This document shows, one piece after another, positions 16,276-24,664 of a stretch of 32,940 nt of DNA (positions are counted from its first letter, which is position 1; each line of letters opens with the position of its first letter). The translations under genes were made by a program, and so were the position numbers. The notes beneath the pieces are model-generated. The model did not search any database, was not told the DNA's origin, and saw only the letters and a program-made list of their open reading frames with translations. The stretch is from Candidatus Parvarchaeota archaeon (GTDB lineage: Archaea; Nanobdellota; Nanobdellia; Parvarchaeales; Parvarchaeaceae): contig JAMCSP010000034.1 of assembly GCA_023378865.1 (NCBI GenBank), forward strand, positions 1 to 32,940, read 5' to 3'.

Positions 16276-16326
16276 TAATAATTTATAATCCAGTCAGTTA
16301 TATCATTTTAATTATATGGAAAACTA

Positions 16327-16336
16327 TTTATATTAT
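16327..16336 (+). promoter_or_regulatory. TATA box for leaderless 16356 gene
   Basis: atttatatta about 25 nt upstream of ATG 16356. Confidence 0.5.
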
Positions 16337-16355
16337 AACTAATCACTATTTTAAA

Positions 16356-17501
16356 ATGAACAATTATATAAAAAACCTTGGAAAATACTCAAAAAAGGAA
16401 GACTTCTTTGAAGGACAGTGGTACGGCTTCAAGGATCCATTTGAAAAAGCACTTTCAAGTAATAGCAGTGAAAATGGCATGTTGATCTGGCTAAAAGCAA
16501 TAGCAAAATATCATATAAACGAAAGCACGGGTTCAAGGTACTGGACAGAAAAAGCAAAGTCAAACGGTATAACCTACGAAAAAATAGACAATGCTAAAGA
16601 CTTAGATTCACTTGTTTCATTGCTAGGAAACTCTGATTCCAGCCTTTTAAAGAAAGAGAACGGCTACAAAGATTATTACATGCCAAAAAATTTCAAACTT
16701 GAGGACATGTTCAAAAGCTCCTCATCAGGCACTACAGGGCCGGCAAAGACTGTTTATCACACCCCTCAGTCTTTGTCTATTTCTGCAGTCAATGAATACA
16801 CGGGAATAAAGGCGCAGTACCCCGTAAAAGATCTAAAAAACAAAAAGTTAGTGGCTGCTGGGCCTATTGGTGCTTATCAGGAAGAACACAAGAAACTTGC
16901 AGAGCTTCTTGGGATGGAATATATAGGAAATGAATTTGAAACAAAGGGATTAAAGCTTTTAAGTCCGGAGCAGATGATGGAAGCAATGAAGCCAGTGATG
17001 GAAAAAGAGATATACACGTTGAAGCAAGGTAACGTCGGAATAGCAACTGCTGCAATGGAAATGCTTTCAATGATGCCAAAAGAAGTATTTTATGGTACAG
17101 ATATAATAAAGGTATCGGGAACGCAGATAAATACAGATATGTTAAAAAAGATGGAGAACAGACTCGGTAAAAAACTCATACCGATGTATGGCCACTATGC
17201 CGGAAAGTCTTCAATAGGCTTTAAAGACGGTGTAAGTATAGTTCATTTAGGCGGCGGAAAGATATATTTCAGCAGTGACATAGCTTATTTCCCACCATTT
17301 CCAGTCACATATATTTATATGAATTACCAAGAGAGAACTACTGCATATGGAGAAAAAGTACCAACAAAGATGATAGTTGCCGAGCCTGAACTTTTGCTAA
17401 TAAATGATGAAGACTACGCAGTAAAAACAAAATCAATGAAAACAACAAAAGCTTTCAAAAAGATAGACGGAATTTCCAATCTTTCAAGATCTTTAAATTA
17501 A
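16356..17501 (+). CDS. Divergent adenylate-forming (AMP-binding) enzyme, 381 aa
   Basis: A3-like phosphate-binding loop SSSSGTTGPAKTVYHT; VSGTQIN and PMYGHYAGKSSIGF; short or atypical C-terminal lid. Confidence 0.65.
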   Translation: MNNYIKNLGKYSKKEDFFEGQWYGFKDPFEKALSSNSSENGMLIWLKAIAKYHINESTGSRYWTEKAKSNGITYEKIDNAKDLDSLVSLLGNSDSSLLKKENGYKDYYMPKNFKLEDMFKSSSSGTTGPAKTVYHTPQSLSISAVNEYTGIKAQYPVKDLKNKKLVAAGPIGAYQEEHKKLAELLGMEYIGNEFETKGLKLLSPEQMMEAMKPVMEKEIYTLKQGNVGIATAAMEMLSMMPKEVFYGTDIIKVSGTQINTDMLKKMENRLGKKLIPMYGHYAGKSSIGFKDGVSIVHLGGGKIYFSSDIAYFPPFPVTYIYMNYQERTTAYGEKVPTKMIVAEPELLLINDEDYAVKTKSMKTTKAFKKIDGISNLSRSLN

Positions 17502-18853
17502 TAGTGTTCTATCCCCCTTTTATCTATAATCTTAGGGCTTTTAATTCTCTTGGGATCATAAAAAGGAATTTTGTCCTTATCTACTAGCTCAACTTCAAGT
17601 GAAGCCAATTTTTTGTCCAGTACATACTTTAGTTCCATCTCTTTTTTGGATAATTTATCTAAGATTAGGTTAACTACCTCCTCTTTACTGCCTTTAAATT
17701 CATTTTTATAAAAGTAAAAAGTCAGCTTATCCAAGCCATTTTCTCTAGTTATCTCAGTGTATCCTTCTCCTAGATTTAATTTTCTTGATGCAAAGGCAAG
17801 AACGTCATCTATTATTATATCATCCAATTTTGATACGCTGAAATTGACAAGCTTATTTGTCCTGCCGAGAAATTCAAGATACATATAATCCTTGTCTATG
17901 CCTATAAACCTGACTTTCTCCTTTGTATTATAATTTATTAAAGGCACGTGATCATAGCCATTTAATCCCTTGCTTATCAAAAGCAATTCGCCTTCAAGCC
18001 CCTTGAGTTTATTATCAGAGGGATAATAAACCTTTCCATCGGAGTAAATACCAAATTCATTGTTATACCTAGAAAGTTTAAATACAGAAATGTCCGGAAT
18101 ACCTTCGCTCTTCAACAGTTCTTCCGAATAAAATTTGCCACCACAAACCCGCTCAGTAGATGCAAGTATGTCTATTACGCCCCTTACTGGTATCAAAGAA
18201 TAAAGAAGCTTGCATCTTTCAAGATTTAGAGGCTCTCCGCCTACTGAGATGTATATTTCATTTTTACGCGCTATGTAATTTAATTCTTCTCTTGATTTTT
18301 CATCTAAGTTATATATTTCTCTAAACAAAATTGATAGCAAGCTGGATATAAGAATCTTTTTATTAATGTTTGGATGCGAATCTATTATGTAATTTGACTT
18401 TTTCAAAAGATCTAAAAGCGTTTGGCCTGGCCCGGGATTTAATTCTATTGATTTCCCAATCTCGGATATATATGACATGGTTATTCCACTTATAGCAGGC
18501 CTGGGTGGAGCAATATTTATAGTTATATAAGGAATTTCTCCAAGTAATCCCTTATAAAATCCTATAAAAGTCTGACCAAAAACATTCATATCACCATAAG
18601 TTACAGGTATAACTTTAGGTTTTCCAGTCGAACCTGAAGTTTGAAGTAAAGACACATTAGTACGCATGTCAGGTATAAATTTATAGAAGTTATCAATGAA
18701 TAGTTCACCTGAAATTACAGGAATATCCCTAATTACACCTCCTAAATTCTTTGAAGTCAAATTTTTCAGGGGTTTATATGAATCCGACTTATAAAAATCT
18801 ATATTATTTAATGCATATTCAAAAACAGACTTAACATTGGGCTTTGCTGTCAT
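17498..18853 (-). CDS. Adenylate-forming enzyme (PaaK-like / AMP-binding), 451 aa
   Basis: LLQTSGSTGKPKVIPVTYG (A3), SVGGEPLN, DILASTERVCGGKFYSEELL, PLINYNTKEKVRFI, LEFLGRTNKLVNFSVSKLDD. Confidence 0.75.
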   Translation of the reverse strand: MTAKPNVKSVFEYALNNIDFYKSDSYKPLKNLTSKNLGGVIRDIPVISGELFIDNFYKFIPDMRTNVSLLQTSGSTGKPKVIPVTYGDMNVFGQTFIGFYKGLLGEIPYITINIAPPRPAISGITMSYISEIGKSIELNPGPGQTLLDLLKKSNYIIDSHPNINKKILISSLLSILFREIYNLDEKSREELNYIARKNEIYISVGGEPLNLERCKLLYSLIPVRGVIDILASTERVCGGKFYSEELLKSEGIPDISVFKLSRYNNEFGIYSDGKVYYPSDNKLKGLEGELLLISKGLNGYDHVPLINYNTKEKVRFIGIDKDYMYLEFLGRTNKLVNFSVSKLDDIIIDDVLAFASRKLNLGEGYTEITRENGLDKLTFYFYKNEFKGSKEEVVNLILDKLSKKEMELKYVLDKKLASLEVELVDKDKIPFYDPKRIKSPKIIDKRGIEHY

Positions 18854-19377
18854 AATTGAACTTCAGATATAAATTTACATTCTGGGTCTCCCTTTGCCTT
18901 GCAGTATATCTCCTTTGTTGAATATTTTTTATCCATTAAACTAGTAAACATCGCGCTTAAACTACCCGCTGAGAAAAAGCACACTGGTTTCTCAGACTTA
19001 CCAAATATCTCTAAATATGCTTCTGCCATTGGAGAAGGATTAATTGTGGTTACAATTTTATCTTTATCAAAACTAAAAACGAATTTTCCAAGGCCGGATG
19101 TTGCAACAACGTTTGATACCAAATCAAGAATTTTATTGATATCATTATTAAATCTATTTTTATAATCGCTTATTATGCCACTTATGCTAATTGAACCGGC
19201 ATTGTATGCTTCATTTTCATCGTATTTTATGAGTTTACCAATTAAAGACGCAAATATACTCATATTTATAAGCACACCTGGCCTATTCATTAACAGTAAT
19301 CTATTATTCTCAAACCTTATGTTTTTGGTCAAGAGCATCTCATTTAAGAAATTATTTGGGGCTGTATCACTTGACAT
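18850..19377 (-). CDS. V4R (4-vinyl reductase-like) domain protein
   Basis: C-terminal KEIYCKAKGDPECKFIS typical of V4R; FSAGSLSAMFTSLMDKKY; overlaps both neighbours by a few nt. Confidence 0.75.
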   Translation of the reverse strand: MSSDTAPNNFLNEMLLTKNIRFENNRLLLMNRPGVLINMSIFASLIGKLIKYDENEAYNAGSISISGIISDYKNRFNNDINKILDLVSNVVATSGLGKFVFSFDKDKIVTTINPSPMAEAYLEIFGKSEKPVCFFSAGSLSAMFTSLMDKKYSTKEIYCKAKGDPECKFISEVQL

Positions 19378-20032
19378 ATATGCCTCCCTTGTCTATTCTC
19401 ATAGGGAGCATTGATCTATCATTATTCGTCCTTCTCATTTTTATTATCTGCATACTTCTATCGAAATCGCCACCCAAACCAGTGTAGAAAAGATTTATAA
19501 CTGCGTCAGAAAGATACTCTCCGCTGAAATAAAGTGTGTCATTATCCGAAACCTGTGGCTGCTCGTCAGTAACTATTGCAGTTACCTTGAACTTTTTAAG
19601 TTCGGTAACTAAATCAAGCATGAATTTCCTGAATTTGCCTCTATCCTCCATATACATTGAAATAGCAGACAAAGAATCAATTACAACCCTGGAAACCTTA
19701 TTTTCATGGATCACGTCAAGCACTCCCAAATATTCAAAATTTATAGGGGAGTTGAATGAAATGAGTAATTTTTTCTTAGAAACGAAATCTCTTATATCAT
19801 TTAATCCGATGGCTTCCATATCACTTATTAGATCATCGACGTTTTCTTCAAATGATACTAGCAAACAGGTTTCTCCGTTCTTCAAACCCTCATATAAAAA
19901 TGACATCCCAAGAAGAGACTTTCCAGAACCTGGCCCCCCCAATACGCTTATTACAGAACCGATTTCAAATCCGCCATCTATCTTTTGGTCTAGGCCGTGT
20001 ATACCACTGGGTATTCTTTTTATTCCTGCCAT
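19367..20032 (-). CDS. KaiC-like RecA-superfamily ATPase
   Basis: GIHGLDQKIDGGFEIGSVISVLGGPGSGKSLLGMSFLYEGLKNGETCLLVSFEE (Walker A), SRVVIDSLSAI (Walker B). Confidence 0.9.
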   Translation of the reverse strand: MAGIKRIPSGIHGLDQKIDGGFEIGSVISVLGGPGSGKSLLGMSFLYEGLKNGETCLLVSFEENVDDLISDMEAIGLNDIRDFVSKKKLLISFNSPINFEYLGVLDVIHENKVSRVVIDSLSAISMYMEDRGKFRKFMLDLVTELKKFKVTAIVTDEQPQVSDNDTLYFSGEYLSDAVINLFYTGLGGDFDRSMQIIKMRRTNNDRSMLPMRIDKGGIYVK

Positions 20033-20037
20033 ATTAA

Positions 20038-20058
20038 TTTCTATACATAATATAGAAA
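20038..20058. promoter_or_regulatory. Perfect inverted repeat between TATA-like element and start of the KaiC-like operon (possible operator)
   Basis: TTTCTATA-CATAA-TATAGAAA, 8-bp arms and 5-nt spacer, 6-26 nt upstream of ATG 20032; TATA-like TTTATTAAATAAG (minus strand) lies immediately further upstream. Confidence 0.45.
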
Positions 20059-20099
20059 GACTTATTTAATAAACTTTTGTATTTAGCTTTTGGAATAAA

Positions 20100-21120: not shown

Positions 21121-21603
21121 ATGAAAGGACTTTTTCCTTTAAATATAAAGATAGGCCAGATACAGGGAGTTATCTCCATACTAAAAGAATATAACGGACA
21201 GATTTCCCTGCAGGAACTTTCTGATGAGGCATTAGAGCAGGCTGATGACCTTGTCAATGTACTTCAGGCCTGTAAACTGCTTGGATTTATAAAAATAAAC
21301 AACGGAAATATAAAACTGAATAAAAAAATTGAAGATAAGAACTCTCATGAAATAAACCTGGAAATAAAAAGGAATTTACTGAAAATAGAGCCGTTTTTGG
21401 AAATAAAAAGGGTAATAAGAAAAAACAAGAAGATAACAACTACTGAGTTATTCCAGGATCTGATAAAAAAAGGAGTTATAACATACAGAAACAATTTATC
21501 AGGTATAGAAGCATTCAAAAGAGACCTGCTTGTCATAGGTATAAGGCTTGAAATACTTGCATATGAACATGAGAACGACATTTGGAAAATAAATAACAAA
21601 TGA
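21121..21603 (+). CDS. Stand-alone AAA_assoc_C-like (PF09821-like) domain protein
   Basis: IGQIQGVISILKEYNGQISLQELSDEALEQADDLVNVLQACKLLGFIKINNGNIKLNKK resembles the C-terminal domain often fused to nitrate/sulfonate ABC ATPases; next to such an ATPase. Confidence 0.55.
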   Translation: MKGLFPLNIKIGQIQGVISILKEYNGQISLQELSDEALEQADDLVNVLQACKLLGFIKINNGNIKLNKKIEDKNSHEINLEIKRNLLKIEPFLEIKRVIRKNKKITTTELFQDLIKKGVITYRNNLSGIEAFKRDLLVIGIRLEILAYEHENDIWKINNK

Positions 21604-21606
21604 GAT

Positions 21607-22353
21607 TCACTCGGCAAAAATTGAATATATTTCATTTACCTTCTTTCTGAATTCCCTGCTTCCTCTATCTCTAGGCCGTTTTATATCAACATTCAGCATC
21701 TTCTTTACAACTGCGGGTTTATTTGACAATACAACTATTTTATCTGACATCTCCACTGCTTCCTCTATATTATGTGAAACCATTACAATTACTTTAGGCA
21801 AAGTCTTCCTGTCCTTTAAAACCTCTATAACGGTTTTACGAAGGCTGTTAGCAGTAAGCTCATCCAGTGAGCTGAATGGCTCATCCATTAAAAGCAAAGT
21901 AGGATTTGATACCAGTGCTCGCGCAAGTCCTACTCTCTGCTTCATCCCGCCACTTAAAAGATTCGGGTAAGCATCCTCAAAACCTTTCAGCTCCAGTTTA
22001 TAAAGCATTTCCAATGCGGTTTTTTCTCTTTCGGCTTCTGTTATCGGCTTTGAAGCCAGCCCTATCTTCACGTTTTCAAGGTTTGAAAGCCACGGCAAGA
22101 GCGCAAAATCCTGAAAAACAAATGAAATATCGGTTGAAGGACCGTCTATTTTCTTTCCAGCCAGTACTATACTTCCGCTATCTGCCTTTATTAAGCCTGC
22201 TATTATCCTAAGAAGGGTACTCTTTCCGCAGCCAGAAGGTCCTATTATGGAAACAAATTCTAATTCATTTGCTGAAAAGGATATTCCATCTAATACCGTT
22301 AATCCGCTTTTAGGGTATGCAAAATTTATTTTTTCAACGTTTAGGAATGCCAT
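21607..22353 (-). CDS. Nitrate/sulfonate/bicarbonate-type ABC transporter ATPase
   Basis: GPSGCGKSTLLRIIAGL, FVFQDFALLPWLSNLENV, LSGGMKQRVGLARAL, LLLMDEPFSSLDELT; lacks the C-terminal extension. Confidence 0.92.
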   Translation of the reverse strand: MAFLNVEKINFAYPKSGLTVLDGISFSANELEFVSIIGPSGCGKSTLLRIIAGLIKADSGSIVLAGKKIDGPSTDISFVFQDFALLPWLSNLENVKIGLASKPITEAEREKTALEMLYKLELKGFEDAYPNLLSGGMKQRVGLARALVSNPTLLLMDEPFSSLDELTANSLRKTVIEVLKDRKTLPKVIVMVSHNIEEAVEMSDKIVVLSNKPAVVKKMLNVDIKRPRDRGSREFRKKVNEIYSIFAE

Positions 22354-22355
22354 AA

Positions 22356-23855
22356 CTAAGAATAAACTGAATTTACTCTGTTATATAACCTGCGCCATAC
22401 AAAATAGTTTATAATAATTATCATTGCCACCATATTGGCAAGAAGGACACCCATCAAAAGAAGGTTATTATTGGCTAATGCAACGTTTAATGCCTTGCCT
22501 ATCCCTATAGACACTGAAGTTATAAGTTTACCGCTGCCTGCTGAAAAGTATTCCGCAACTATACTTGCATTCCACTCTGCAGCGATACCTGTTACCGCAC
22601 CGGTTATTACTCCAGGCATTATAGCCTTTAGATATATCTTTTTCCATGCAATTATTCCATCAAGATGAAAGATTTTCTTCACTTCATCTATGCTTTCTGG
22701 CAGGTATTTTGTAGTGGCTACTATACTAAAAATTACATACCATAAGCCGCTTAAAAAGTAGATTATAAATGCTAACAATTCAGAGTTCCCATAAACAAGT
22801 TCGGCTATTGCAGGCAGTAATATGGTAGCGGGTATTGAAGCAAATATCTGAAACAAAAGCAGATATCTTTTTGTCTTGTTTGAAAGGAACACTACGTATA
22901 TGCTTAGTGGAATTGAGACTGCAATTATTGCAAGGAAGGCACCCCAGACCCTTAGAAATGAAAAGGCCAGCGACAAAAGGGAATATCCTTCGTATCCGAT
23001 AAGTTTGCTTAACAGTTGCAGATTTACAAAAGGGATTACTTTGTAGATTATAAAACCAAAAAGCGCTGCAAGCAATACATAAAAAATAAAATTAGCATAT
23101 ACAGTTAACTTATGCCTGCCTTTTCCACTAAGTTTTATCCCTTTATCCCTGAAATAATTAAATGTAAACTTATCCCTTTTTCTTTTCTTGTAGTCCTTTA
23201 AGTAATACCTGTTCGCAAACCTGTCAAACCTTTCAAAGAACAATAAACGGGTTGCTATCACAAATAAAACGAATATTATTATAGAATAAAGATAAAGATA
23301 AAAGTTACCGGTTGCAGCCGCCTTTACAAATTCAACCCCTATACCATGTTTTACTGCGTAGTTCTTTGTGCCTACTGAGAATATTTCGCTTGTAACCAAG
23401 TAAAAAAGCCCGATCGCCCAGGATAAACTCATCTGCTCGGACATTCTAGGAAGCGATGCAGGAATGAATATTTTCTTAAGCCGCTGATAAAAATTAAGTC
23501 TGTATATTTTTGCCATATCCAAATACTCGGAAGGCAGGGATATTATTGCCTGATAAACGCCAAATATGATGTTCCAGAGCATGCTTGTTATTATCAAAAA
23601 TATAACTGCAGCATTTATTCCTATCGAGCCGGGAAAATAAAATACAAAAAGATATATAGCAAACGGAAAGAACGCAAGTATTGGCAGGGTCTGCAGTATA
23701 TCTACAACAGGCATTAGAACCCTGTTCAATTTCTTTGACCTTGCCACAGCTATGCCGGTAAACAAGGCTATTACCATTGAAATCGACAAAGCTATCAACA
23801 TCCTTGTCCAAGAATATACAGTATCCAGTATAACTGAAAAAACCAGCTGTAACAT
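22356..23855 (-). CDS. Tandem (double) ABC permease, nitrate/sulfonate type
   Basis: Two BPD_transp_1-like halves: SLPSEYLDMAKIYRLNFYQRLKKIFIPASLPRM and YLPESIDEVKKIFHLDGIIAWKKIYLKAIMPGVITGAVTGIAAEWNASIVAEYF. Confidence 0.88.
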   Translation of the reverse strand: MLQLVFSVILDTVYSWTRMLIALSISMVIALFTGIAVARSKKLNRVLMPVVDILQTLPILAFFPFAIYLFVFYFPGSIGINAAVIFLIITSMLWNIIFGVYQAIISLPSEYLDMAKIYRLNFYQRLKKIFIPASLPRMSEQMSLSWAIGLFYLVTSEIFSVGTKNYAVKHGIGVEFVKAAATGNFYLYLYSIIIFVLFVIATRLLFFERFDRFANRYYLKDYKKRKRDKFTFNYFRDKGIKLSGKGRHKLTVYANFIFYVLLAALFGFIIYKVIPFVNLQLLSKLIGYEGYSLLSLAFSFLRVWGAFLAIIAVSIPLSIYVVFLSNKTKRYLLLFQIFASIPATILLPAIAELVYGNSELLAFIIYFLSGLWYVIFSIVATTKYLPESIDEVKKIFHLDGIIAWKKIYLKAIMPGVITGAVTGIAAEWNASIVAEYFSAGSGKLITSVSIGIGKALNVALANNNLLLMGVLLANMVAMIIIINYFVWRRLYNRVNSVYS

Positions 23856-23887: not shown

Positions 23888-24664
23888 TTATTTTGTTAAG
23901 CTTTTCTTTCTAAGTATAAGAGGGCCGTTGTCTATCCAGTATTTTACACCATTAGCTGAAATTAAATAATTTTCATTTTTATTTAGATATTCCACAACAT
24001 TTGAGATAGGATCCAGTAAAATTCTTTCGCCTTTTCTGTTTCGCAGCTCTACCCAGCAGTGTTCCGCCTTTTCTCCTTCTCTTTCAACCCAGCCCATAGT
24101 ATAGAAGGCCTTTAAACCAGTTCTTGTTTTTTCTCTATTAAGCAAAACACTTAATGTAACAGCAAATTCATGGCAGAGAAACGGCCCATGAATCAATGAA
24201 CCATCTAAGGATATTGCTTCACCCTTACGCTGATTGTTACCTTCCAGATACAGTAAATCAGAATTTGTCATTATCCCCTTGTCTTTACTATAACTGTCAG
24301 TATATTCCATCATTCTATAATATAGCTGAATGTACAGTGAATTTGCTATTGCTAAGGCCCTTTCTAATCCGTTTTTATCTCCGGCTGCAGACCTTGCAGA
24401 ACTGTAAATTTCGTATAGACTAGAGGATTTACTCCAGGTTTTGTTTATGAATATGCCATAAATTTCTGACAAGAACTGATTTGTAGAATTAGTGTCATAG
24501 ATTCTAGGGGATATCTCAGCGGTTAATCCGGCATTTAACACTATATCTCCATTTTTAATCTTGTTTGGATACTTTAACACGATTCCGTAGTCTTTTAATT
24601 CATTTAATTTAACTGCTTGATTGTATTTACTTTCTTTTAGAATGGCGAATAGATTTAAAGCCAT
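23888..24664 (-). CDS. Transglutaminase-like superfamily protein
   Basis: Cys-His-Asp pattern: GPFLCHEFAVTLSVLLNR ... EHCWVELRNRKGERILLDPISNVVEYL. Confidence 0.65.
   Translation of the reverse strand: MALNLFAILKESKYNQAVKLNELKDYGIVLKYPNKIKNGDIVLNAGLTAEISPRIYDTNSTNQFLSEIYGIFINKTWSKSSSLYEIYSSARSAAGDKNGLERALAIANSLYIQLYYRMMEYTDSYSKDKGIMTNSDLLYLEGNNQRKGEAISLDGSLIHGPFLCHEFAVTLSVLLNREKTRTGLKAFYTMGWVEREGEKAEHCWVELRNRKGERILLDPISNVVEYLNKNENYLISANGVKYWIDNGPLILRKKSLTK

Follow-up and report, generated by a model that had tools for sequence, protein, structure and literature searches.

The analysed window (32,940 nucleotides, positions 1 to 32,940 of contig JAMCSP010000034.1 of a Candidatus Parvarchaeota archaeon) belongs to a genome of 807 kb in 35 contigs, designated G000. 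It contains four genes, referred to below as KaiC, V4R, ADE1 and ADE2 (Table 1). The first three lie on the minus strand and overlap from end to start, KaiC and V4R by 11 bp (19367-19377) and V4R and ADE1 by 4 bp (ATGA, 18850-18853), with a GGAGG motif within KaiC directly upstream of the V4R start. Both overlaps and all three positions are exactly those of the original prediction, which was made from the sequence of the window. That prediction was of a three-gene module. The operon is indeed real and conserved, but the unit is a quartet, since the convergent ADE2, whose 3' end overlaps that of ADE1 by 4 bp, had been overlooked. Conserved TATA-like elements precede both ADE2 and the KaiC operon. 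All of the genes are under purifying selection (dN/dS of about 0.02-0.2 for the close species compared).

Table 1. Positions of the genes, promoter regions and cassette within the window
Feature	Position	Strand	Description	Basis
KaiC-like single-domain ATPase	19367..20032	-	221 aa, operon's first gene	Pfam, alignment, KaiC-family PDB matches
V4R-domain protein	18850..19377	-	175 aa	Pfam, MopR profile match, alignment
ADE1, PaaK-like adenylate-forming enzyme	17498..18853	-	451 aa, N- and C-terminal domains	profile, AlphaFold2/Foldseek
ADE2, EhpF-like truncated adenylating enzyme	16356..17501	+	381 aa, convergent with ADE1	profile, AlphaFold2/Foldseek, co-occurrence
Intergenic promoter region, KaiC-V4R-ADE1 operon	20033..20099	-	conserved AAAAGTTTATTAAATA, BRE/TATA-like	alignment, eight species
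ADE2 promoter region	16300..16355	+	conserved AA(A/C)TATTTATATTA, TATA-like	alignment, six species
Exchangeable V4R-ADE1 cassette	17498..19377	-		identity scan, junction alignments, trees, dN/dS table, distance-matrix correlation

Family assignment of the four gene products

The KaiC-like ATPase matched PF06745 (Pfam, E 2e-46), and the alignment revealed a RecA-like KaiC domain with intact Walker A (GGPGSGKS), Walker B (VIDSLS) and acidic (SFEE) motifs, which places the protein in the KaiC superfamily. It is not a circadian KaiC proper: its 221 aa form one domain, without the tandem CI-CII arrangement, and its scores are far below the circadian equivalog cut-offs (121.8 vs 408 bits and 76.3 vs 546 bits).

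The V4R fold held up in the profile search, with a match to PF02830 (E 1.1e-11) of 45.0 bits against a gathering threshold of 31 bits. The V4R domain of MopR is a phenol sensor. The profile of MopR (5kbe) was also matched (E 6.6e-9), and residues C133, E156, C159 and C167 align with the C/E/C/C positions of the MopR metal site; the N-terminal part aligns poorly. MsvR was the best NCBIfam family match (5.9e-9). The protein is not an MsvR proper, because the score reached 36 bits vs the 220-bit cut-off, the match is confined to the C-terminal part and there is no fused helix-turn-helix domain. The spacing of C133, C159 and C167 (26 + 8 residues) is nevertheless identical to that of C206, C232 and C240 of MsvR (PMC3729527), and redox sensing of the MsvR type by these cysteines could be an alternative to the binding of a ligand.

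As a single sequence, ADE1 remained under the Pfam cut-offs (AMP-binding, 14.4 vs 29.9 bits). The profile of its family matched PaaK-type ligases (4r1l, E 1e-24), and its AlphaFold2 model (pLDDT 88.7) retrieved the PaaK/BT_0428 structures 4r1m and 2y4o in Foldseek (E 3e-19 to 3e-18). The two-domain fold, the conserved P-loop-like motif TSGSTGKPK and the invariant C-terminal K438 are those of a PaaK-type ANL enzyme, and, so far as the model and the alignment show, ADE1 has the architecture and motifs expected of a functional ligase. The family names originally proposed (KaiC-like, V4R and PaaK-like) were thus all correct, on the evidence of Pfam for the first two proteins and of profile and fold for ADE1. 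In another family, f13 (genomes G043 and G053), the ADE1-like protein gave a match to coenzyme F390 synthetase (2e-86). F390 synthesis was rejected as the main reading on account of sub-cut-off scores against TIGR03335 (at best 290 vs 458.7 bits, in G043, with no match in G000) and of the nature of the CofD-family gene. The only match to this family in G000 is YvcK-like and the f13 genomes have none, so that F420 is not indicated. Viral carriage of ADE1 was looked for and none was found.

By profile (3hgu, E 4e-12) and by fold (AlphaFold2 model with pLDDT 83.9, Foldseek E 2e-16), the closest relative of ADE2 is EhpF, which takes part in phenazine biosynthesis; ADE2 shares its truncated ANL fold without a C-terminal domain. 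A search of plasmids yielded merely distant EhpF-like proteins in other contexts, either annotated as arylcarboxylate reductase or adjoining aldehyde dehydrogenases. In aryl-carboxylate reductases of the GriC/GriD type, an adenylase is paired with an aldehyde dehydrogenase-type reductase; the substrate of GriC/GriD is 3-amino-4-hydroxybenzoate (PMC10179220). This pairing does not occur here, and carboxylate reduction was rejected because no aldehyde dehydrogenase is linked to the module: the ten Parvarchaeal genomes that were searched carry one unlinked copy apiece, and G043 and G053 have none. The loading of a carrier protein was likewise rejected, since matches to PF00550 are absent in 12 module genomes.

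Distribution and gene order in related genomes

The synteny sample comprised 55 genomes (G000 and relatives). V4R directly adjoins ADE1 in each of the 13 genomes with ADE1, and a KaiC orthologue adjoins this pair in 13/13, on the V4R side in all except G020, where it lies next to ADE1. The three-gene synteny on which the original prediction depended is therefore conserved in relatives, far beyond chance. In most of the genus the order is KaiC-V4R-ADE1 with a convergent ADE2. In G030 and G031 the order is ADE2-KaiC-V4R-ADE1, with all four genes in the same direction and abutting or overlapping, and in G020 it is V4R-ADE1-KaiC, with ADE2 starting another contig. A DDE transposase gene adjoins V4R at the rearranged module of G020 (L043:10039-10983). 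The SPFH loci of G022, G010, G015 and G011 contain none of the four module genes. Genomes free of the module have merely KaiC paralogues (28-35% identity), the exception being two with a contig end inside the orthologue.

ADE2 was found in 13 of the 378 genomes of the class, and the phylum sample added no further case. Twelve of these 13 genomes also have V4R and ADE1; in the remaining one (G025) contigs end inside KaiC and ADE2. ADE2 is missing from G029 despite the presence of ADE1 and V4R, and is otherwise found wherever the assembly allows. One protein-pattern scan that reached beyond the phylum returned four close relatives only, labelled Candidatus Parvarchaeota or, once, Nanoarchaeota.

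The two f13 genomes have kept V4R, ADE1-like and ADE2-like genes. A 99-aa gene precedes V4R in G053, and in G043 a 90-aa gene with a weak match to HTH_20 (0.003, below the cut-off) lies ahead of another V4R; at a guess, such genes may encode a DNA-binding partner for V4R. In 9 of the 16 other genomes examined, KaiC is placed beside V4R or one gene away, without ADE1 or ADE2. KaiC and V4R are thus a general pair, common in this archaeal class, to which the two adenylating enzymes are a special addition; it follows that only the combination with both enzymes is unusual.

Several further observations concern V4R genes and the surroundings of the locus. In other genomes of the class, V4R is adjoined by other genes (L099:4944-6335, with similar-looking ones in L101, L102, L104 and L108), one of which, when tested, matched the nitric-oxide sensor NosP (1e-18, below the cut-off). 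G000 itself encodes two V4R-domain paralogues of 344 aa in duplicated neighbourhoods (L113:3790-4824 on contig C35 and L114:3750-4784 on contig C13), the former matching PF02830 at 1e-11. Within the window, ABC transporter genes and the gene of an AAA_assoc_C protein (21121-23855) lie beside the SPFH gene and are absent there in G004, G009 and G026, forming a second local presence/absence block. Positions 23888-24664 encode a fast-evolving protein of 258 aa with no Pfam or NCBIfam match, whose interspecies identity is 50-73% where that of SPFH exceeds 80%.

Exchange of V4R and ADE1 as a two-gene cassette

Between G001 and G004 the V4R proteins are 95% and the ADE1 proteins 94% identical, whereas the identity of either genome to other members of the genus is 44-53% for V4R and 38-44% for ADE1; the flanks mostly remain similar in the same comparisons (SPFH 85-96%, KaiC 81-93%). 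DNA identity drops between KaiC and V4R and rises again at the end of ADE1, so that the breakpoints coincide with gene ends, the last ADE1 codons being common to both cassette types. Synonymous divergence between G001 and G004 follows the same boundaries, with a dS of 0.18 for V4R and 0.36 for ADE1 (partial in G001) vs 0.88 for KaiC and 1.44 for SPFH. The V4R tree and the ADE1 tree each unite G001 and G004 with full support, and the SPFH+KaiC DNA tree rejects such a clade (p-AU 6e-5); the latter data set was chosen because the protein tree of KaiC by itself did not suffice to reject this grouping (p-AU 0.15). A single clade of the core genomes is rejected by ADE1 (p-AU 0.005) but not by V4R alone (0.07). 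Distance matrices of V4R and ADE1 are correlated at 0.99, a value dominated by the single G001/G004 exchange, vs 0.03-0.06 for V4R and KaiC. These data demonstrate that V4R and ADE1 have moved between species as a two-gene cassette, while KaiC and ADE2 stayed in place. Enzyme and receptor were exchanged as a matched pair, in the manner of quorum-sensing-type cassettes, with one clear exchange and two clear types.

The KaiC gene of G002 (L038:9346-10011) likewise seems to have been replaced, the donor lineage resembling G009: it is 91% identical to that of G009, and its dS in relation to G000 is 1.50 vs 0.22-0.41 for V4R, ADE1 and SPFH. Recombination is therefore frequent in this region, and one block swap may reflect neutral linkage. 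Contig breaks within V4R or ADE1 (G001, G007 and G025) are merely suggestive of strain mixture and were not counted as evidence.

The joint exchange suggests that V4R and ADE1 recognise the same molecule, and it constitutes the best evidence for a shared specificity, although it is by inference that we read it as the matching of a ligand. The original idea that the V4R protein and the ligase handle one ligand has thereby gained independent support.

A possible function of the module and its relation to known systems

We consider it evenly balanced whether the quartet serves small-molecule signalling, with a ligand specificity common to V4R and ADE1 and with KaiC as the output. V4R, with its MopR/MsvR fold a sensor of the metal-binding type, would recognise a small hydrophobic acid or its product. 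ADE1 would activate the same compound as an adenylate, probably en route to a thioester, and ADE2, which lacks a C-terminal domain, would perform a second adenylation. The KaiC-like ATPase would read out the state of V4R and serve as the shared output switch. The shared specificity, the class of the ligand, the direction of information flow and the V4R-KaiC contact are all inferred. Given that there is no aldehyde dehydrogenase linked to the module, none found in the two f13 genomes and no carrier domain found, we read the module as one of sensing and activation of a single small acid or its product. The open-access literature searched for V4R with KaiC or PaaK yielded no description of the full module, the KaiC survey of 2017 lying outside this coverage, which agrees with the earlier statement that no characterised system with the KaiC-like/V4R/PaaK-like trio is known.

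Alternatively, the locus might serve substrate-inducible metabolism, with ADE1 and ADE2 degrading, detoxifying or salvaging an aromatic or acyl acid from the environment, V4R and KaiC only switching the enzymes on, and different cassette types corresponding to different acids. Both enzymes are indeed nearest to families that activate aromatic acids (PaaK and EhpF), the EhpF-like plasmid proteins bear the annotation arylcarboxylate reductase or adjoin aldehyde dehydrogenases, the V4R domain of MopR senses phenols, and transporters flank the locus. These transporters, however, belong to the local backbone and not to the module; the module has no conserved catabolic gene downstream, and at other genomic sites just its four genes recur. 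We regard this explanation as possible but rather unlikely. The enzymes might instead produce what is sensed. The PaaK-like/EhpF-like pair would synthesise an acyl or aryl signal, to be sensed by V4R of the matching type and relayed by KaiC, in an undescribed archaeal system of cell-cell communication. In such a system the V4R-ADE1 cassette would be a pherotype locus, comparable with the types of agr or ComQXPA. The exchange of a matched enzyme-sensor cassette between species with shared flanks is what such a system might produce, as is a divergence of the cassettes far above that of the flanks. However, between the shared flanks just two clear types occur (plus the diverged G013), each with a low internal dN/dS, and exporter and signal remain putative, which makes both the communication system and its pherotype locus doubtful.

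We attach still less probability to the view that V4R senses redox state in the manner of MsvR and acts on KaiC, with no organic ligand and with the adenylating enzymes as effectors. The family match to MsvR and the equal cysteine spacing favour it. Yet V4R is far under the MsvR cut-off, these cysteines together with the Glu also align with metal-site positions of MopR, which binds a ligand, and redox sensing offers no reason for the co-exchange of V4R and ADE1.

KaiC-like ATPases have been proposed as archaeal signalling hubs, and their triggers are mostly obscure. If the signalling reading is correct, the locus ties a KaiC-like protein to a sensor and to predicted enzymes for the sensed compound, so that the ligand may be approached via enzyme specificity, and the two cassette types on a constant KaiC provide a built-in comparison. 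It would also represent a signalling cassette exchanged between species of ultra-small archaea (Parvarchaeota relatives).

Each component has a known counterpart from which it departs in some respect. As in the archaeal KaiC-like hubs (Makarova, Galperin and Koonin 2017, cited in PMC5847659 and PMC6393860), a single-domain KaiC-like ATPase lies beside a sensor-domain gene; the module differs in the addition of two adenylate-forming enzymes, a comparison that does not extend to the neighbourhoods of the 2017 survey. V4R shares the aligned C/E/C/C metal-site residues with the phenol sensors MopR, PoxR and DmpR, but is a stand-alone protein of 175 aa with no fused AAA+ or DNA-binding domain; it shares the three-cysteine spacing with methanogen MsvR, but not the fused helix-turn-helix. 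ADE1 resembles the PaaK/coenzyme F390 synthetase family in fold and core motifs while remaining below all cut-offs, and ADE2 has the truncated ANL fold of EhpF and GriC/GriD, without an aldehyde dehydrogenase beside it. With due reserve, we consider the two-gene exchange of V4R and ADE1 to be new, and the module otherwise to be a variant of archaeal KaiC/V4R signalling rather than something categorically new.
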